In this document: positions 6,699-54,083 of the stretch, in pieces
Layout: each line of letters starts with the position of its first letter
How positions within the stretch are numbered: the first letter of the stretch is position 1
The notes under the pieces: generated by a model
The model's database searches: none
Seen by the model: only the letters and a program-made list of their open reading frames with translations
What the model was told of the DNA's origin: nothing
Made by a program: the position numbers and the translations under genes
NCBI RefSeq assembly: GCF_025153455.1
Contig: NZ_JANZNT010000002.1
Coordinates: 124,001-188,000 of the forward strand
Source: Sphingomonas sp. BGYR3
GTDB taxonomy: Bacteria; Pseudomonadota; Alphaproteobacteria; Sphingomonadales; Sphingomonadaceae
DNA: 64,000 nucleotides
Direction of reading: 5' to 3'

Positions 6699-6977
6699 TC
6701 AGCCCTTCTTCTTGTACATGGCGAGCATCCGCTCGGTGACGGCGAACCCGCCAAAGATGTTGATGCTGGCCAGCACTACGCCGAGCAGGCCCAGCCATTT
6801 CGCCACCGGCGACCCCGCAGCCGCGGATGCGATCAGTGCGCCGACGATGATGACCGAGGAGATCGCGTTCGTCACCGCCATCAGCGGCGTGTGCAGCGCG
6901 GGCGTAACCGACCAGACGACATAATAGCCCACGAAACAGGCCATGACGAAGATCGACAGGATCGAGATGAAGTCCAT
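6699..6977 (-). CDS. pntAb: NAD(P) transhydrogenase alpha subunit, membrane part (PntA2)
   Basis: 92 residues starting MDFISILSIF, with three hydrophobic segments: ISILSIFVMACFVGYYVVWS, then LMAVTNAISSVIIVGALIAS, then WLGLLGVVLASINIFGG. It ends ERMLAMYKKKG, as in split alpha subunits of alphaproteobacteria. It forms part of the proton channel with PntB. A longer in-frame start at 7016 would translate palindrome sequence and is rejected. A GGGAG ribosome site lies ten bases before the ATG, between that ATG and the inserted DUF559 element, so the element left the translation signal of this gene intact. Confidence 0.95.
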   Translation of the reverse strand: MDFISILSIFVMACFVGYYVVWSVTPALHTPLMAVTNAISSVIIVGALIASAAAGSPVAKWLGLLGVVLASINIFGGFAVTERMLAMYKKKG

Positions 6978-6981
6978 GGGT

Positions 6982-7371
6982 TCAAGCTCCCAATCGATCC
7001 TCCCCATGCATCGCATGGGGAGGGGGACCGCTCGCCGCAGGCGAGGGGTGGAGGGGCGATGCCCAAGCCATGATGGCCTCGGCTGTGTGGTCGGGGTCGG
7101 AAAGCACGTCGCGGGCCGGGATGCGGAGAACCGTCAGTCCCTTGCCCCGTAGAAAGTCATCACGCCGCCGGTCGTGATCCAGACGATTGGCATGAGCCTT
7201 GCCATCGATTTCGACGACCAGCCGGGCCGCAGGGCAGTAAAAATCAAGGACATAGGGCGGCAACGGATGCTGGCGGCGGAATTTGGCCCCCAGCGAACGG
7301 CGCCTAAGCGCACGCCACAGCAGGACCTCCGGCAAGCTCATCGACCGCCGCAGCATCCGGGCGCGATGCAC
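6982..7371 (-). CDS. DUF559 vsr-like endonuclease-domain protein, inserted in the pnt operon
   Basis: Starting at the GTG at 7371 (AGGA ribosome site just before it), the product has 129 residues. It shows the DUF559 pattern: RARMLRR near the start, LLWRALRRRSLGAKFRRQHP at 17-36, then VLDFYCP with Asp43 and VVEIDGKAH with Glu54 and Asp56. This is a PD-(D/E)XK-like arrangement related to very-short-patch repair nucleases. The biochemical role of DUF559 is not established. The frame is also open upstream to an ATG at 7446 that overlaps the pntAa stop, but those extra residues come from the flanking palindrome. The C-terminal 25 or so residues are likewise repeat-encoded. It separates pntAa from pntAb, which are normally adjacent. 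Confidence 0.85.
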   Translation of the reverse strand: MHRARMLRRSMSLPEVLLWRALRRRSLGAKFRRQHPLPPYVLDFYCPAARLVVEIDGKAHANRLDHDRRRDDFLRGKGLTVLRIPARDVLSDPDHTAEAIMAWASPLHPSPAASGPPPHAMHGEDRLGA

Positions 7372-7432
7372 TGTTCCTGCCCCTCCACCGCGCTGCGCGC
7401 GGTCCCCCTCCCCATGCGGGGCATGGGGAGGA
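6998..7432. mobile_element. inverted-repeat-bounded DUF559 element
   Basis: About 435 bp with matching ends in inverted orientation. The left end runs 6998-7057 and the right end 7379-7432. Each end holds an outer hairpin with the same ten-base arms (CTCCCCATGC / GCATGGGGAG; loops at 7010-7012 and 7418-7420). Then come GGGGACCGC, a smaller six-base hairpin whose sequence differs between ends but pairs in both (7031-7045, 7388-7402), and the inner motif GGTGGAGGGGC facing the gene. Different bases with kept pairing suggest selection for structure. The DUF559 gene fills the interior. Mobility is inferred from the structure and from its position inside a conserved operon. Confidence 0.65.
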
Positions 7433-7442
7433 CCCTGCATGG

Positions 7443-8567
7443 TCATGAGGCCAGCAGCCTTTCGTTCACGACCTTGCCGCCATGCGTGAGGCGGATGGCG
7501 GTGCCGATTTCCTCATCCAGCACGGGCTTGCCGGCTTCCTTGTCCCAGAAGGCGGACAGGAAGTTGAACAGGTTGCGGCTGAACAGGGCGCTGGCGTCGG
7601 CGGCCAGGCGGCTGGCGACGTTCTTGTGGCCGACGATCTTCACGCCGTGGATCGTCACCACTTCGCCAGCGACCGAGCCCTCGACATTGCCGCCGCTCTC
7701 CACGGCCAGGTCGACGATGACGCTGCCCGGCCGCATCGATGCGATCTGCGCGTCGGAAATCAGGCGCGGGGCCGGGCGGCCGGGGATCAGCGCGGTGGTG
7801 ATGACGATGTCCTGCTTGGCGATGTGCGACGATACCAGTTCGGCCTGTGCCGCCTTATATTCGTCGCTCATTTCGGTGGCATAGCCGCCCGAACCTTCGC
7901 CCTCGATGCCCTTCACCGCTTCGACGAAGATCGGCTTGGCACCCAGCGACAGGATCTGTTCCTTGGTCGCGGAGCGGACGTCGGTTGCAGACACCTGCGC
8001 GCCCAGGCGGCGGGCGGTGGCAATCGCCTGAAGCCCCGCGACGCCGACGCCCATCACGAACACGCGCGCGGCCGAAACGGTGCCCGCCGCCGTCATCATC
8101 ATCGGAAAGGCGCGGCCATATTCGGCGGCCGCGTCCAGCACCGCCTTGTACCCCGACAGGTTCGCCTGCGACGACAGGATGTCCATGCTTTGTGCGCGCG
8201 TGATGCGCGGCATGAATTCCATGGCCAGCGCCTCGATCCCCAGCGCGGCATAGGCGTCGACGCGCGCACGCTCGCCAAAGGGATTGAGACCGGCGGCCAG
8301 CCAGGCGCCGGATTTGATGCCCGACAGGCTGTCGGGTGCCGGACCCTGAATGCCCAGCAGAATGTCGGCGTCCGCGATCACGCCCGCCCGCGGGGCCAGG
8401 GTGGCGCCGGCATCGGCATAGGCCGAATCGGCAATGGCGGCGCCGTTGCCGGCCCCCTGTTCCACCGTCACCGTCGCGCCGAGGCCGACGAATTTCTTGA
8501 CGGTTTCAGGCGTCGCTGCAACGCGCGCCTCGCCCGGAGCGGTTTCCCGCAGGACGCCGATCTTCAC
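7443..8567 (-). CDS. pntAa: NAD(P) transhydrogenase alpha subunit, soluble part (PntA1)
   Basis: 374 residues. This is the NAD(H)-binding domain dI, built like alanine dehydrogenase: MKIGVLRETAPGEARVAATP at the start, the hydride-transfer region near MPRITRAQSMDILSSQANLS, and the Rossmann loop VMGVGVAGLQAIATARRLGA in the middle. The start codon is GTG, one base after the stop of the CoxIV-like gene (TGA-C-GTG), so translation is probably coupled. In many alphaproteobacteria pntAb follows directly. Here the DUF559 element intervenes, and the pntAa stop overlaps the upstream ATG of that frame. Confidence 0.97.
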   Translation of the reverse strand: MKIGVLRETAPGEARVAATPETVKKFVGLGATVTVEQGAGNGAAIADSAYADAGATLAPRAGVIADADILLGIQGPAPDSLSGIKSGAWLAAGLNPFGERARVDAYAALGIEALAMEFMPRITRAQSMDILSSQANLSGYKAVLDAAAEYGRAFPMMMTAAGTVSAARVFVMGVGVAGLQAIATARRLGAQVSATDVRSATKEQILSLGAKPIFVEAVKGIEGEGSGGYATEMSDEYKAAQAELVSSHIAKQDIVITTALIPGRPAPRLISDAQIASMRPGSVIVDLAVESGGNVEGSVAGEVVTIHGVKIVGHKNVASRLAADASALFSRNLFNFLSAFWDKEAGKPVLDEEIGTAIRLTHGGKVVNERLLAS

Positions 8568-23036: not shown

Positions 23037-23139
23037 CCCTCACCCAACCCTCTCCCGCAAGCGGGAGAGGGCTATGGCTGGCGGCGCGGATGGTCCGCAA
23101 AAGCCCTCTCCCGTCTACGGGAGAGGGTTGGGTGAGGGC
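23037..23139. repeat. paired palindromic repeat of the CCCTCACCCAACC family (solo element)
   Basis: Two copies in inverted orientation. The first (23037-23073) is CCCTCACCCAA then an 11-base hairpin CCCTCTCCCGC / GCGGGAGAGGG. The second (about 23101-23139) is the reverse: hairpin CCCTCTCCCG / CGGGAGAGGG with loop TCTA, then TTGGGTGAGGGC. About 28 unrelated bases lie between. The second copy also forms the 3' boundary of the DUF559 gene, whose stop codon falls in the hairpin loop. Confidence 0.85.
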
Positions 23140-23492
23140 GTTTTCTTTGACCCCTCGAGCTTGGCGAGGATCGTCGCAAGGACGCCGTCCGGGTTTTCCA
23201 ACACGTCGTGGTTCCAGAAGCGGAGCAGCGCGTAGTCTGCTGCTTCCAGTGCCTTGGAGCGGGCTGCGTCGCGTTCGGGGCTGTGCTGGCCGCCGTCCAG
23301 TTCCACGATCACGCGATGTTCGGCGCAGAGAAAGTCCACGATGAACGGGCCGACCGTCGCCTGACGCCGGAACTTGTAGCCGCCAAGCTGCCGGTTGCGC
23401 AGGGATTGCCAGAGGCGTTGTTCCACATCGGTCGCTTCGCGGCGCAGGCGGGCGGCGTGGGGACTGGTCGGGCCGATCGCGGGCATCGACAA
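23115..23492 (-). CDS. second DUF559 vsr-like endonuclease-domain protein
   Basis: 125 residues. DUF559 features are AARLRREATDVEQRLWQSLR near the start, GGYKFRRQATVGPFIVDFLC with Asp53, VIVELDGGQH with Glu64 and Asp66, and LLRFWNHDVLENPDGVL. The acids match a PD-(D/E)XK-like site. The TAG stop is inside the hairpin loop of the adjoining palindrome, so the C-terminal PSPNPLP is repeat-encoded. A third palindrome copy lies 19 bases before the start. It shares the family but not the close sequence of the copy in the pnt operon, so the two are old paralogues or separate arrivals. Confidence 0.88.
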   Translation of the reverse strand: MSMPAIGPTSPHAARLRREATDVEQRLWQSLRNRQLGGYKFRRQATVGPFIVDFLCAEHRVIVELDGGQHSPERDAARSKALEAADYALLRFWNHDVLENPDGVLATILAKLEGSKKTPSPNPLP

Positions 23493-23510
23493 ATGGTATA
23501 GGGAAGAAGG

Positions 23511-23547
23511 CCCTCACCCAACCCTCTCCCGCGAGCGGGAGAGGGCT
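23511..23547. repeat. palindromic repeat bounding the second DUF559 gene
   Basis: CCCTCACCCAA followed by the 11-base hairpin CCCTCTCCCGC / GCGGGAGAGGG (loop GA) and CTT. It is nearly identical to the copy at 23037-23073 and inverted relative to the one at the gene's 3' end; the same GAAGAAGG precedes both. It lies eight bases past the glmM stop and may also act as that gene's terminator. Confidence 0.85.
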
Positions 23548-48229: not shown

Positions 48230-48281
48230 GGGGGGGATATGGGGCGGGGCAGGGGTGTGGGGAAGGGTGGAAGGAAGAACA

Positions 48282-48375
48282 CCCTCACCCTTCCCACCGC
48301 CTGCGGCGGCGGGCCCCTTCCCTCTCCCGCAGGCGGGAGAGGGAGGTAGGCGCGTCAGCGCCGGAAGGGTGAGGG
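48282..48375. repeat. palindromic element without a gene (CCCTCACCCTTCC ends)
   Basis: 94 bases with perfect 13-base inverted ends CCCTCACCCTTCC (48282-48294) and GGAAGGGTGAGGG (48363-48375). Inside are three smaller palindromes: CCGCC..GGCGG, CCCTCTCCCGC..GCGGGAGAGGG and GGCGC..GCGCC. Its CCCTCACCC ends and CCCTCTCCCGC hairpin match the repeats around the second DUF559 gene, so it looks like a gene-less member of that family. It fills the gap between the divergent exonuclease and helicase genes. Confidence 0.85.
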
Positions 48376-48445
48376 CTTCTTCTTGCAGCCCGCATGGGTG
48401 AGCGCGGGGATTGGCGAAGCGGGGGGAAGGGGCCACATTGGGCGG

Positions 48446-50863
48446 GTGAGCGACCTATCCCCCATCCTGACCGACTGGTTCGCATCGCGGGGATGGGGGG
48501 TGCGGGACCATCAGTTGCGGATGCTGGCATCGGCGCGGGCGGGGCGGCACGCGCTGCTGGTCGCGCCAACGGGGGCGGGCAAGACCATGGCGGGGTTCCT
48601 GCCGGTGCTGGACGACCTGATCCGCGCGCCTGCGGTGGGGCTGCATACCCTCTATATCAGTCCGCTAAAGGCGCTGGCGGTGGATGTGCGGCGCAATCTG
48701 CTGGCGCCGATCGAGGACATGGCCCTGCCGATCCGGGTGGAGACGCGGACCGGCGATACGCCCAGCGACCGCAAGGCGCGGCAGCGGGCGCGGCCGCCGC
48801 AGATATTGCTGACCACGCCGGAATCGCTGAGTTTGCTGATCAGCTATCCCGACAGTTTCGAATTGCTGGCGGGCCTGAAGACCATCATCGTCGATGAGGT
48901 TCATGCGTTCGCCACCGGCAAGCGCGGCGACCTGTTGTCTCTCGCGATGAGCCGATTGCAGGCGATTGCGCCCGATGCGCGGCGGGTGGCGCTGTCCGCC
49001 ACGGTCGCCGATCCCGACGGGTATCGCGCCTGGCTGGCCCCGGATGGCGATATCGACGCGGTTGACCTGGTCGCCGGGGTTGAGGGGGCGGAGCCGGACA
49101 TCGCCATCCTGTTGCCCGAGGGGCGGGTGCCATGGTCCGGCCATTCGGGGCGATATGCCGCGCCGCAGGTGATGGCGGAGATCGAGACGCACGAAACCAG
49201 CATCGTGTTCTGCAACACCCGCGGTCTGGCCGAGCTGATCTTTCAGGAGTTGTGGAAGGTCAACGAGCTGAAGCTGCCGATCGGGGTGCATCACGGCAGC
49301 CTGTCGATCGAGGCGCGGCGCAAGGTGGAGGAAGCGATGGCGCGCGGCGAACTGCGCGCGCTGGTCGCCACGGCCAGCCTGGACCTGGGCGTCGATTGGG
49401 GCAATGTCGATTGCGTCATTCAGATGGGCGCGCCCAAGGGGTCGTCGCGCCTGTTGCAGCGGATCGGGCGGGCCAATCACCGGCTGGACGAACCATCGGA
49501 GGCGGTGCTGGTGCCGGGCAACCGGTTCGAATATCTGGAGGCGCGGGCGGCGCTGGATGCGGTGCGCGACGGCGAGCTGGACCCCGATATCTTTCGCCCC
49601 GGCGGGCTGGATGTGCTGGCCCAGCATCTGATGGCGTGCGCGTGCGCCGCGCCGTTCGATGCTGCACAGATGCTGCGCGAGGTGCAGTCGGCGCTGCCCT
49701 ATTCCGGGCTGGATGCAGAGACGTTCGACCGGGTGCTGGGGTTCATCGCCGATGGCGGCTATTCCCTGCGCGCCTATGACCGGTTCAAGCGGCTGATCCT
49801 CGACAAGTCGCTGGGGGGCAAGGACGGCCTGTGGCGGGTCAGCCATCCGCAGTTCGTGGCGCAGCACCGGCTGAATGCCGGGATCATCGTCGATGCCCCC
49901 GTGCTGGACGTGCGGTTCAAGAACGGGCGCAAGCTGGGCACGGTGGAGGAATATTTCGCTGCGTCGCTCAGCCCCGGCGACACGTTCTTCTTTGCCGGAA
50001 TCAGCCTGGAGGTGGAGCGGATGGACGCTGCCGAGCTGATCGTGCGGGCGACCAGCCGGCCGGCGCGCATCCCCACCTATGTCGGCGCGCGGATGCCGCT
50101 GTCCACCAACCTGGCCAACCGGGTCCGCCATTTCCTGCATGAGCCTGCGGAATGGGCGCGCTTTCCCGCCGATGTGCGCGAATGGCTGGAGATGCAGCAG
50201 CGGCGATCGCGGCTGCCCGAACCCGGCGAATTGCTGGTCGAAACCTTTCCGCGGGAGGGGCGGCATTATATGGTCGCCTATAGTTTCGAGGGGTGGAACG
50301 CGCACCAGTCGCTGGGGATGCTGATCACCCGGCGGATGGAGGCACAGGGGCTGAAGCCGCTGGGCTTCGTGTCCAATGATTATGCGCTGGCCTGTTATGG
50401 GCTGGAGCCGATCACCGATCCCGCCGCGCTGTTTTCGCGCGATATCCTGGAGGAGGAATTTGTCGACTGGGTGCAGGGGTCCTCGCTGCTGAAGCGGGCG
50501 TTCCGCGAAGTGGCGGTGATCGGCGGGCTGGTCGAGCGGCAGTTGCCGGGCAAGCGCAAGACGGGGCGGCAGGTGACGTTTTCCACCGACCTGATCTACG
50601 ACGTGCTGCGCCGGTACGAGCCGGGGCACCTGCTGCTGCAGGCGGCATGGGCGGATGCGCGGGCGCGGATGACCGATGTCGGGCGGCTGGCCGACCTGCT
50701 AGACCGGGCGGCGGGCACGATGCTGCACGTCGAACTGGACCGGATCAGCCCGCTGGCCGTGCCGGTCATCGTCCTGATCGGGCGGGAGAGCGTGGCGCAG
50801 GGATCGGTGGACGACGAACTGCTGATCGAGGCGGAGGCGCTGGCGGCCGAGGCGATGGCGTAA
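48446..50863 (+). CDS. ligase-associated DEXH-box helicase (Lhr-like)
   Basis: 805 residues with a GTG start (the upstream open frame is repeat sequence). Superfamily 2 motifs are APTGAGKTMAGFLPVLDDLI (Walker A), TTPESLSLLI, IVDEVHAF (DEVH), SATV, VFCNTRGLAELIFQELW and LLQRIGRANHRLDEP (motif VI). The C-terminal winged-helix/Lhr-core part follows with FNVSRGEA-type replacement TFPREGRHYMVAYSFEGWNA. It unwinds DNA in an interstrand-crosslink or damage response. The usual partner ligase and PdeM genes are not next to it; glyQ follows. Confidence 0.93.
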   Translation: MSDLSPILTDWFASRGWGVRDHQLRMLASARAGRHALLVAPTGAGKTMAGFLPVLDDLIRAPAVGLHTLYISPLKALAVDVRRNLLAPIEDMALPIRVETRTGDTPSDRKARQRARPPQILLTTPESLSLLISYPDSFELLAGLKTIIVDEVHAFATGKRGDLLSLAMSRLQAIAPDARRVALSATVADPDGYRAWLAPDGDIDAVDLVAGVEGAEPDIAILLPEGRVPWSGHSGRYAAPQVMAEIETHETSIVFCNTRGLAELIFQELWKVNELKLPIGVHHGSLSIEARRKVEEAMARGELRALVATASLDLGVDWGNVDCVIQMGAPKGSSRLLQRIGRANHRLDEPSEAVLVPGNRFEYLEARAALDAVRDGELDPDIFRPGGLDVLAQHLMACACAAPFDAAQMLREVQSALPYSGLDAETFDRVLGFIADGGYSLRAYDRFKRLILDKSLGGKDGLWRVSHPQFVAQHRLNAGIIVDAPVLDVRFKNGRKLGTVEEYFAASLSPGDTFFFAGISLEVERMDAAELIVRATSRPARIPTYVGARMPLSTNLANRVRHFLHEPAEWARFPADVREWLEMQQRRSRLPEPGELLVETFPREGRHYMVAYSFEGWNAHQSLGMLITRRMEAQGLKPLGFVSNDYALACYGLEPITDPAALFSRDILEEEFVDWVQGSSLLKRAFREVAVIGGLVERQLPGKRKTGRQVTFSTDLIYDVLRRYEPGHLLLQAAWADARARMTDVGRLADLLDRAAGTMLHVELDRISPLAVPVIVLIGRESVAQGSVDDELLIEAEALAAEAMA

Positions 50864-50955: not shown

Positions 50956-51849
50956 TTGGCACAGCCGCTCAGTTTCCAGCGCATGATCCTGACGCTCCAC
51001 GATTACTGGAGCCGTCACGGATGCCTTATCCTGCAACCCTATGACATGCGCATGGGGGCAGGCACGTTTCACACCGCAACGACGCTGCGCGCGCTGGGGC
51101 CGGAGCCGTGGAATGCCGCGTTCGTCCAGCCGTGCCGCCGCCCGACCGATGGCCGCTATGGCGAAAACCCCAACCGGTTGCAGCATTATTACCAGTATCA
51201 GGTGATCCTGAAGCCCAGCCCGGAAAACCTGCAGGAACTGTATCTGGGGTCGCTGTCCGAAATCGGCATCGACCCGCTCAGGCACGATATCCGGTTCGTC
51301 GAGGATGACTGGGAAAGCCCGACGCTGGGCGCATGGGGCCTGGGCTGGGAAGTGTGGTGCGACGGGATGGAGGTGACGCAGTTCACCTATTTCCAGCAGA
51401 TGGGCGGGTTCGACTGCAAGCCGGTGGCGGGCGAGCTGACCTATGGTCTGGAGCGGCTGGCCATGTACATCCAGAATGTCGACAGCGTGTATGACCTGGC
51501 GTTCAACGACGCGGGCGTGACCTATGGCGAGGTGTTCCTGGAAAACGAGCGCCAGATGTCGAAATATAATTTCGAGGTGGCGGACACCGAGACACTGTTC
51601 GAGGGATTTCGCAAGGCGGTGGCCGAATGCGAGAACTGCCTGACCCACAATGTGCCCATCGCGGCTTATGAACAGGCGATCGAGGCGAGCCACCTGTTCA
51701 ACCTGTTGCAGGCGCGCGGCGTCATAAGCGTGGCGGAGCGTCAGGCCTATATCGGCCGGGTCCGCGATCTGGCCAAGGGCAGCTGCGAGGCGCACATCAA
51801 GCACATGATGCCAGAATGGCAGGCGCAGTTTCCGGAGTGGACGCTGTGA
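50956..51849 (+). CDS. glyQ: glycyl-tRNA synthetase alpha subunit
   Basis: 297 residues with a TTG start, required because [20 protein letters not shown] is the normal GlyQ N-terminus and no ATG is available in frame at this place. Family sequence continues with [60 protein letters not shown] and [20 protein letters not shown]. The alpha subunit carries the aminoacylation active site and works as an alpha2-beta2 complex with GlyS. The glyS GTG overlaps its stop by four bases. Confidence 0.97.
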
Positions 51850-54083
51850 CCGATTTTCTGCTGGAGCTGCGGTCGGAGGAAATCCCGGCGCGGATGCAGG
51901 ATCGCGCGCGGGCCGATCTGGAAAAGCTGTTCGTCGCCGAGCTGGAGAAGGCGGGGCTGAAGGCCGGGGGCATCGTCACCTATGCCACGCCGCGCCGCCT
52001 GACGCTGATCGCGCGGGACTTGCCGGAGGCGACGGCCGCGCTGAGCGAGGAGCTGAAAGGCCCGCCCGCCGATGCGCCCGACGCTGCAGTCGAGGGGTTC
52101 CTGCGCAAGGCGGGGCTGACCCGCGACGCGCTGGAGACGCGGGACGTGAAGGGGCGGGCGACGCTGTTCGCGGTGATCGAACGGGCGGGGCGGCCGACCG
52201 CTGACCTGCTGGCCGAGGCGATCCCGGCGATCGTCCGCGCATTCCCGTGGCCCAAGTCGATGCGCTGGGGCGCGGCGTCGGTCTCGACCGAAAGCCTTCG
52301 CTGGGTGCGCCCGTTGCAGGGGATCGTCGCGCTGTTCGGGGATGCCGTGGTCGATTGCGAGGTGGCGGGCATCCGGTCGGGCCGTGAGACGATGGGCCAC
52401 CGGTTTCACCATGACGGCGTGGTTACCATCGGGTCGGCGCAGGATTATGCGGAGGCACTGCGCGCTGCCCATGTCATCGTCGATCAGGACGAGCGCCGGG
52501 CGATGATCCGCGCGCGCGCCGCAGAACTGGCGTCGGAGGCTGGCCTGACCCTGATCGAGGATGAGGGGCTGGTCGCGGAGAATGCGGGCCTGACCGAATG
52601 GCCGGTGCCGCTGATCGGCCGGTTCGATCCGGCGTTTCTGGACGTGCCGCCGGAGGTCATTCAGCTAACCGCACGGGTTAATCAGAAGTATTTCGTTTGT
52701 GCCGATACGGATGGCAAGCTGGCCAATGCGTTCGTGTGCACCGCGAACATCACGGCGAGCGATGGCGGGGCCAAGATCGTCGAGGGCAACCAGAAGGTGC
52801 TGGCCGCGCGATTGAGCGATGCGCGGTTCTTTTACGACACCGACCTGAAGGTGCCGCTGGAGAAGCAGGCGGAAAAGCTGGCCAAGATCGTGTTCCACGA
52901 AAAGCTGGGCACGGTGGCCGACAAGGTGGATCGCGTGGCGAAGCTGGCCCGCTGGCTGTGCGAGGAGGGGATCGTCCGTCCTTCACCCCTCCCCTTCAGG
53001 GGAGGGGCCGGGGGTGGGGGTGTCCCCCAAGCCGGATCGCCCGTGGGGCGCCCCCACCCCAACCCCTCCCCTGAAGGGGAGGGGCTGAGCCAGGAACAGC
53101 TGGCCGACCTTGCCGAACGGGCGGCGCGGCTGTGCAAGGCGGACCTGGTCACCGGGATGGTCGGCGAGTTTCCGGAACTGCAAGGCCTGATGGGCGGATA
53201 TTACGCCGCCGCGCAGGGCGAGCACCCCGCGGTCGCAGCGGCGATCCGCGACCATTACAAGCCGGTCGGGCAGGGCGACGATGTGCCCACCGATCCGGTG
53301 ACGGTGGCAGTTTCGCTGGCGGACAAGCTGGATACGTTAATGTGCTTCTTTGCCATTGGCGAGAAGCCAACTGGCTCGAAAGATCCCTTTGCGCTTCGTC
53401 GTGCAGCGCTAAGTGTCATTCGCTCGGTGCTGGCAAACAACATTCGGTTTAGCCTTGACGATTCGCTTGAGACAATGACCGACGTAATCGCGTCAGGCAG
53501 GACGGATGGCGAACGGCAAGCGCGGCGAGATGAATTAGATGGCATTCTTCTGAATGAGATTGCGACTGGCGATGCCGGTTTGGTTTGGTTCTTCGCCGAC
53601 CGCCTCAAGGTCCAGCAGCGCGAAGCCGGCGTCCGGCACGATCTGATCGACGCGGTGTTCGCGTTGGGCGGGGAGGATGATCTCGTCCGGTTGCTGGCCC
53701 GTGTCCATGCGCTGCAGGCGTTTATGGGGACCGAGGATGGGGCGAACCTGCTGGCGGGATACAAGCGCGCGGCGAACATCCTGAAGAAGGAGGGCGGCGT
53801 GCCGGAAGGTGCGGGGACCAATCCGTCGCCTGCACCGGCCGAAGCCGCGCTGATCGCGGCGCTGGATGCGGCGGAGCCGCTGGCGGCGGCTGCGGTGGCG
53901 GAGGAGCGGTTTGGCGATGCGATGGCGGCGCTGGCCAGCCTGCGCGCGCCGATCGATACGTTCTTTACCGATGTGATCGTCAACGACCCCGATCCGGCGA
54001 TCCGCGCGGCGCGGCTGGCGCTGCTGGCGCGGATGCGGGATGCGGTCCACGCCGTCGCCGACTTCAGCCGGATCGAGGGATAG
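51846..54083 (+). CDS. glyS: glycyl-tRNA synthetase beta subunit with an in-frame palindromic insertion
   Basis: 745 residues, GTG start at 51846 overlapping the glyQ stop. The N-terminus is [20 protein letters not shown], followed by [20 protein letters not shown] and WLCEEGIV. It then departs from the family for about 35 residues (Pro/Gly-rich, roughly 379-413) before rejoining at [20 protein letters not shown]. The tRNA-binding C-terminus ([20 protein letters not shown]) is normal. The insertion is DNA of the palindrome family. A following stretch (about 53330-53600) is AT-richer than the rest, pointing to a recombined segment. The frame is kept throughout, so the protein is presumably functional. 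Confidence 0.95.
52986..53084. mobile_element. palindromic element inserted in frame within glyS
   Basis: 99 bases bounded by two copies of a hairpin in inverted orientation: CCCCTCCCC-TTCA-GGGGAGGGG (52986-53007) and CCCCTCCCC-TGAA-GGGGAGGGG (53063-53084). Each is followed inward by a G-rich tail (GGGGGTGGGGG or GGGGTGGGGG) like the DUF559 element ends. The length is a multiple of three and no stop is created in the frame used. The layout equals the other gene-less elements in the window but the sequence is a separate subfamily. Confidence 0.8.

Follow-up and report, generated by a model that had tools for sequence, protein, structure and literature searches.

A DUF559 gene of Sphingomonas sp. 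BGYR3 was found to lie between two inverted, hairpin-bearing repeat ends inside the transhydrogenase operon, and the same arrangement accompanies most DUF559 genes of related genomes, each protein lineage tending to carry its own class of repeat. On balance, we think it probable that this is a REPtron-like element with an unrelated nuclease as its driver. Gene and repeats are strongly associated, and from this we infer that the DUF559 protein mobilises its repeats. The architecture, its recurrence, the cognate repeat classes, the class-specific copy number, and the presence or absence of the unit at given sites were all observed. The reading provides a working hypothesis for DUF559, still listed by Pfam as a domain of unknown function, and, if true, it would represent a second, independently evolved enzymatic solution for spreading palindromic repeats, one acting on an unusual DNA structure.

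The window analysed here is a stretch of 64,000 nucleotides (contig NZ_JANZNT010000002.1, positions 124,001 to 188,000), in which the whole element, with no strand assigned to it, occupies positions 6998..7432, based on reading of the sequence and on repeat searches. Its inverted arms correspond to exactly 6998-7038 and 7392-7432, are 41 nt long and 90% complementary, and contain one 11-bp outer hairpin each. At the end upstream of the gene, all on the minus strand, the outer hairpin H1 (7407..7431, from the repeat search) is followed by a second hairpin (ACCGCGCGCAGCGCGGT, 7387..7403, read from the sequence) and by the tail GGAGGGG (7380..7386, from sequence and repeat search), which mirrors the H1 purine arm GGGGAGG. 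The downstream end repeats this order on the plus strand, with H1 at 6999..7023 (repeat search), a second hairpin with the inner stem CTCGCC/GGCGAG at 7027..7049 (sequence and DNA fold), and the tail GGAGGGG at 7050..7056 (sequence and repeat search). The G-rich inner tails of the two ends pair with each other over 11 nt (7047-7057 with 7379-7389), and DNA folding of the downstream end unit yielded a z of -3.95. The first-pass annotation had described a 435-bp unit with inverted ends, each a double hairpin plus a G-rich tail, around a DUF559 gene, and had remarked that the inner hairpins (7027-7049 and 7387-7403) are unlike in sequence yet paired at both ends; both descriptions are borne out by these arms, hairpins and tails. 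The longest DUF559 open reading frame (154 aa, 6982..7446, minus strand, from the ORF list and Pfam) covers the entire unit, and its final ~25 residues are therefore translated from repeat. Judging from the sequence, the gene likely starts at a GTG near 7371, and Pfam places the nuclease domain (residues 27-127) at 7066..7368 of the minus strand. As had also been noted, this frame separates pntAa, encoding transhydrogenase subunit alpha part 1 (7443..8567, from the ORF list and orthologues), from pntAb (6699..6977, from the ORF list and junction comparison), all three on the minus strand, with pntAb beginning at 6977, directly past the stop of the DUF559 frame. When a flank test of the same spacing was slid over 1045 positions of the window, the two strongest inverted flanks were those of its two DUF559 genes, the one described here and one near 23160.

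Pfam assigns the product to DUF559 (PF04480) with an E of 1.3e-29 and 102.7 bits, against a curated cut-off of 20.6. Its AlphaFold model has a pLDDT of 82.8 overall and above 90 over most of the domain, and in structure comparison this predicted model matched 3hrl (NGO0050; Z 14.0), the I-Bth0305I homing endonuclease domain, which is the nearest solved fold outside DUF559 (Z 11.3; profile E 3.4e-4), and Vsr (Z 10.0), with Holliday-junction nucleases as more distant fold matches than Vsr. The DUF559 sequence profile finds 3hrl at 8.5e-27 and 3r3p at 3.4e-4. As modelled, the predicted fold is that of a PD-(D/E)XK nuclease of the Vsr/EDxHD type, EDxHD being the label for I-Bth0305I-type homing endonucleases with the Vsr fold. 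The conserved acidic and histidine positions E40, D68, E79, D81, and H85 each recur in no fewer than 212 of the 217 DUF559 rows aligned, and dN/dS ranges between 0.07 and 0.23 in 14 close DUF559 pairs, so that the protein is best described as a putative nuclease under purifying selection. YcjD, the DUF559 protein of E. coli, was in fact assigned earlier to the PD-(D/E)XK superfamily (PMC1189080). The Caulobacter DUF559 protein VsrA (CCNA_02930), which likewise acts on the chromosome, was reported to be required for the SOS response in methylase-less cells and was interpreted as a mismatch repair protein (PMC12907096), unlike the repeat-linked role proposed here. A role in defence was also considered and was set aside, as PADLOC gave weak matches only (DpdF at 2.9e-7 over 74 residues).

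The ends of these elements obey a rule that ties each tail to its hairpin. In 355 end units, a G-rich tail lies beyond the first hairpin, separated from its purine arm by ~2-4 nt or by a second hairpin, and reads as the mirror image of that arm. Mirror matching of arm and tail was better than direct matching in 179 of the 278 units with asymmetric arms, tied in 88, and was worse in 11; counted by distinct arm sequence (63), 54 were for the mirror, 1 against, and 8 tied. A perfect mirror was seen in 42% of units with their own tail and in 9% with a swapped one, G positions scored alone matched fully in 283/349 units, and the tail base opposite an arm A, which did not enter the score, was A in 271 cases, T in 126, C in 12, and G in 3. 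Such pairing, with A opposite A or T, corresponds to the triads of a purine-motif intrastrand triplex, which is the structure predicted for these ends. Tails with short linkers also fit a G-quadruplex motif by eye, and of the two structures the triplex is favoured by the A-to-A/T rule. Paired TM-ECO repeats are reported to differ at their ends in a fixed CC/TT manner; as a rule for the present elements this was discarded, the difference being a tendency here (5 CC/TT and 13 TT/TT of 37 pairs). The triplex nature of such repeats (BoxC/TM) was already known. Their link to a DUF559 gene we did not find in the open-licence PMC literature, a result that does not prove its absence from print. In the accessible part of their text, Holder et al. 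(2015, PMC4666352) reported triplex motifs in >260 genomes and 23 such motifs in E. coli MG1655, and found that TM-ECO forms a stable triplex in vitro, whereas their footprinting in vivo did not support one; the text has no mention of endonuclease, RAYT or Sphingo. The BoxC, PIT, and TM-ECO repeats share with ours the hairpin, the mirror tail, and the inverted pairs; unlike the E. coli BoxC/TM sites, around which that portion of the paper describes no transposase or integrase remnants (PMC4666352), the repeats studied here are the ends of DUF559 units.

The expectation that DUF559 genes elsewhere would also be flanked by inverted palindromes held in the BGYR3 genome, where each of the seven DUF559 genes lies between inverted hairpins, unlike in sequence from gene to gene, with scores from 15 upward (threshold 14.5), and in its relatives, where 79/91 genes exceeded the 99th percentile of a positional null (1248 places drawn at random from 80 kb of the BGYR3 genome, 1% of which lie above it; DUF559 median 28, null maximum 16) and 12/91 had no clear inverted flanks. 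This sample of relatives came from 41 genomes, with 0 to 10 DUF559 matches per genome and several differing genes in one genome; 93/102 rows were kept, nine weak, long-frame or fragment rows being left out, and 2/93 at contig ends were then dropped. Direct flank-to-flank matches had a median of 13 and exceeded the inverted match in some elements, since the hairpins are palindromic and often in tandem. Flanks swapped between genomes had a median of 10 and a 99th percentile of 33.5, scoring high at times because repeat classes are common to several genomes. In the phylum sample, for which own-genus, weak, and fragment rows (64 kept) and then two genes at contig ends were left out, 39/62 genes were above the local 99% null of 13 and 23/62 were without clear inverted flanks, with a null maximum of 34 and 3/704 null positions at 18 or more. 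Of the loci from the best 80 named relatives, four being left out at contig ends, 55/76 were above the 99% null (null maximum 17 of 1459) and 21/76 had no clear inverted flanks; two named loci duplicate genus loci, and the DUF559 genes of two genus genomes show no difference, over the part compared, from those at the S. adhaesiva and S. citri loci. Eight further loci were tested in other groups: inverted flanks scored 102 in S. meliloti and 20 in Deinococcus, direct flank copies scored 75 in N. gonorrhoeae and 67 in Picosynechococcus, and no clear inverted pair was seen at the Photobacterium, P. aeruginosa, Synechocystis, and Azospirillum loci. The Pseudanabaena locus, inside a very long frame, was left out of the flank tests.

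Protein and repeat subfamily were also found to co-vary, as the first-pass annotation had suggested they might. On a tree of 188 DUF559 proteins, built on few columns and with many forks unresolved, the repeat class changed 59 times, against 122.4 when shuffled, and 0/200 shuffles were as low; relatedness inflates this test, and for this reason protein pairs were split by flanks and identity. Among pairs from different genomes with unrelated flanks, and leaving out pairs with class 'o', which is a mixture, the share with the same class rose from 18/775 below 35% identity, through 118/2953, 268/3744, 450/2060, 1026/2364, and 166/286 in the rising bins between 35% and 70%, to 10/12 at 70% identity or above. 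Within one genome, the corresponding values over rising identity bins were 0/9, 1/35, 1/29, 5/21, 9/21, 2/4, and 2/2, and both ends of an element belonged to one class in 98/118 cases. Copy number was class-specific as well. In 25 genus genomes, with an element's own ends removed and with statistics that ignore kinship, class A repeats had a median of 20 copies where a class A element was present (n=13) and of 2 where it was not (n=12; p 3e-4), and class D repeats a median of 8 with a class D element (n=9) and of 0 without (n=16; p 0.002); the cross-class tests were not significant (p 0.13 and 0.42), and class A and class D counts were uncorrelated. Over 150 phylum genomes, the generic repeat pattern was present in 19/31 genomes with clear DUF559 and in 8/119 without (Fisher 2.7e-10), the latter including 15 of the 46 genomes with DUF559 matches, whose best E was 2.9e-5 or weaker; with these weak matches counted as positive, the figures become 20/46 and 7/104. 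Most copies lack a gene. Among 150 listed class A units of six genomes, the tails point inward, as in the elements, in 46/46 neighbouring pairs less than 1 kb apart, of which 42 enclose 15-92 bp and four enclose 347-371 bp and are DUF559 elements.

The element is variable at the pntAa-pntAb junction; fixation there in all relatives, which the first-pass annotation had named as contrary to its reading, was not seen. Of 59 readable junctions, 17 hold DUF559, 18 are gaps of 13-186 bp, and 24 have other inserts, and a lone hairpin without tails is found in two other genomes (G017 and G070). By eye, the genus genomes have in this gap HicA/HicB-like pairs, PH-domain-like ORFs, secreted-like proteins, or nothing. 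The order pntAa-DUF559-pntAb recurs, with similar ends, on a plasmid of Sphingomonas parapaucimobilis. The element looks like an old resident of the operon with losses, the insertion itself appearing old because 15/17 pnt-site genes and one relocated gene form a cluster, with an SH-aLRT of 91 that falls short of the starred level (95), and every one of the 17 is oriented like the operon; a recent insertion was ruled out on these same grounds. In G017, the lone hairpin of the pnt site lies on contig C34 near 23800 and a DUF559 gene of the pnt lineage lies beside glyS (C23:206207), which looks like a candidate natural relocation.

A second slot with presence and absence is a codon position of glyS (glycyl-tRNA synthetase beta). 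In the window, a gene-less inverted pair (52986..53084, no strand assigned), of the class that flanks the DUF559 gene of locus L005, lies in frame inside glyS (ORF 51816-54083). In 29 loci including this one, drawn from the best 30 of 41 genomes with 1/30 left out, a choice that favours filled sites, three slots are empty (18 bp) and 26 have in-frame inserts of 90-195 bp, which belong to differing repeat classes and are in some cases unrelated to triplex-type repeats. In seven genomes outside these loci (G002, G013, G023, G046, G053, G054, and G056), matches stop at residue ~388 and resume at residues ~421-433, as in the empty ones. In-frame palindromes occur also in Rickettsia genes, and the repeats reshape proteins here too, the slot being filled in many of the relatives read. 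Other palindromes without a mirror tail were seen by eye in the same slot of G042, G055, and G009 (L337, L360, and L358). As to the mode of insertion, no target-site duplication was found at 19 gene-less class A pairs (one of 20 was left out, its second end being unmatched), the longest flank match averaging 1.8 against 2.3 for mismatched flanks.

The first-pass annotation had compared the unit with RAYT transposases and their REP sequences, a comparison that stands as an analogy and falls as a statement of membership, with no Y1 transposase in the BGYR3 genome (0 matches of PF01797, the gene being DUF559) and no GTAG foot (9/355 units carry GTAG/CTAC no further than 8 nt from the first hairpin, where even base use would give ~28). 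Like REP sequences with RAYT/TnpA-REP (REPtron, BIME, and REPIN), the elements have one small nuclease gene between palindromes of its own class, many gene-less inverted pairs, class-specific pairing, and patchy distribution, as described in PMC8266576, PMC6006769, and PMC3733652. The DUF559 gene is in fact flanked by its own repeat class with inverted pairs dispersed elsewhere, as in a REPtron; what sets it apart is a PD-(D/E)XK enzyme in place of HUH/Y1, no GTAG foot, and a mirror-image purine tail on the ends. As the defining enzyme and the foot are both absent here, we regard the unit by analogy of architecture as a REPtron analogue and not as a REPtron. Its gene-less pairs also share their ends with a gene-bearing unit, as MITEs and other non-autonomous elements do; in contrast to MITEs and classical IS, it has no target-site duplication that we found and no classical transposase.

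The minimal mobile unit would consist of one PD-(D/E)XK nuclease gene (DUF559) between two inverted ends, each made of a hairpin, often two, and of a purine tail that could form a triplex by folding back onto the first hairpin. The nuclease would recognise its own class of end, probably as single-stranded or extruded DNA, and would cut at or beside it. PD-(D/E)XK enzymes hydrolyse DNA without strand transfer, and for this reason we would leave copying to host repair or replication, which might give rise to new full units and, much more frequently, to inverted pairs lacking the gene; a loss running from one outer hairpin to the other would leave a single hairpin as a scar. Recognition, cutting, and copying driven by the DUF559 nuclease are in this sense deduced, and some of our results weaken the proposal. 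Two repeat-rich genomes have no DUF559 match, namely G129 (35 copies, complete genome) and G215 (115 copies, 87% complete), and in G024 we found 20 class A repeats but no class A element. E. coli has the repeats also without ycjD, and ycjD has no inverted flanks (see below). The lack of target-site duplication, the fact that the pnt insertions belong mostly to one old lineage, the unrelated palindromes in the glyS slot, the DUF559 genes that lack clear inverted flanks, and the occasional high scores of flanks swapped between genomes also speak against it.

These difficulties have to be weighed against what other explanations would leave aside. Repeats might pre-exist and spread otherwise, with the DUF559 gene as a homing parasite that lodged between two of them and spreads by cutting gene-less sites. 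The kinship of the fold to I-Bth0305I, and the filling of the same slots (pntAa-pntAb and glyS) in some species and not in others, would suit such a parasite; EDxHD homing endonucleases and Vsr (I-Bth0305I and E. coli Vsr) share the fold and conserved acidic/His residues with DUF559, which differs from them in lying between inverted hairpin repeats in intergenic positions, with no intron or intein noticed. Homing, however, is allelic, whereas DUF559 genes were found between inverted hairpins at many unrelated sites, and that class should track protein lineage and copy number the cognate class would be unexpected if another agent spread the repeats, which makes the homing alternative unlikely in our view. 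We are more doubtful still of a host function, in which DUF559 would be a structure-specific repair nuclease that resolves hairpins or triplexes where forks stall, with the repeats as its substrates and the linkage kept by selection. Purifying selection, a fold near Vsr and, more distantly, Holliday-junction nucleases, and the link of triplex repeats with genome instability in E. coli (PMC4666352) all agree with this idea, but host use alone does not explain why one genome should keep several differing DUF559 genes with a different class for each protein lineage.

A different transposase might move DUF559 units and gene-less pairs alike, an idea suggested by the fact that in most of the 25 genus genomes there are more repeats than DUF559 genes. 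We consider it very improbable, as the inverted pairs less than 1 kb apart among the listed units of six genomes contain DUF559 alone, and as a survey of the Y1/RAYT family was negative in the BGYR3 genome and in 23/25 genus genomes; RAYT as a mover is on these counts rejected in BGYR3 and unlikely in the genus, where 2/25 genomes have it. That short genes have ordinary GC-rich hairpins or terminators beside them, or lie between hairpins by chance, hardly deserves credence as an explanation. Hairpins are indeed common in this GC-rich DNA (464 kb contain 54 with an arm of at least 9, most of which do not resemble these repeats by eye), but the positional nulls, the arm-tail covariation, and the reversed-pattern controls, with zero matches except two in G129, contradict such an origin.

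A wider claim would be that DUF559 units are a separate kind of mobile element, with triplex ends and a Vsr/homing-type nuclease, independent of RAYT, and the missing source of the BoxC, PIT, and TM repeats of proteobacteria, cyanobacteria, and deinococci, with YcjD as the resident and partly decayed BoxC enzyme. We hold this tentatively, as a possibility just short of an even chance, having lowered our estimate because ycjD is without inverted flanks. A linked, class-matched nuclease is a candidate cause of triplex repeats whose origin was unexplained. In E. coli, the neighbours of ycjD are sapF and fabI (formerly envM, beside which the first BoxC was found), and a TM-type repeat lies ~200 bp downstream of the matched domain (L317, 2501-3040); no inverted flanks were detected by the flank test at this locus (score 9). 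The ycjD region was matched in 3365/5426 E. coli genomes and the repeat, at permissive search, in 5376. A 600-bp ycjD query at 80% coverage went unmatched in ~38% of complete E. coli genomes, and a 61-bp query for the ycjD-side repeat, at a permissive E of 1, hit a median of 19 places per genome. As a source of clean empty ycjD sites the species was abandoned, the best place of the ycjD-less rows among 60 spread rows covering the fabI side only and giving no precise empty site. A link to the eefABC region may exist, to judge from PMC12817139.

The window holds further repeat units. A second DUF559 element, found by profile and repeat searches, occupies 23104..23545 on the minus strand, with its gene in ORF 23115-23492 and ends of the other repeat class, and an extra repeat unit lies beside it at 23037-23071. 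At 48319..48344 (no strand assigned) there is a single palindrome, tailed on either side; within 48240-48460, it has a second hairpin and a tail on each side, as if two ends had fused at the outer hairpin.
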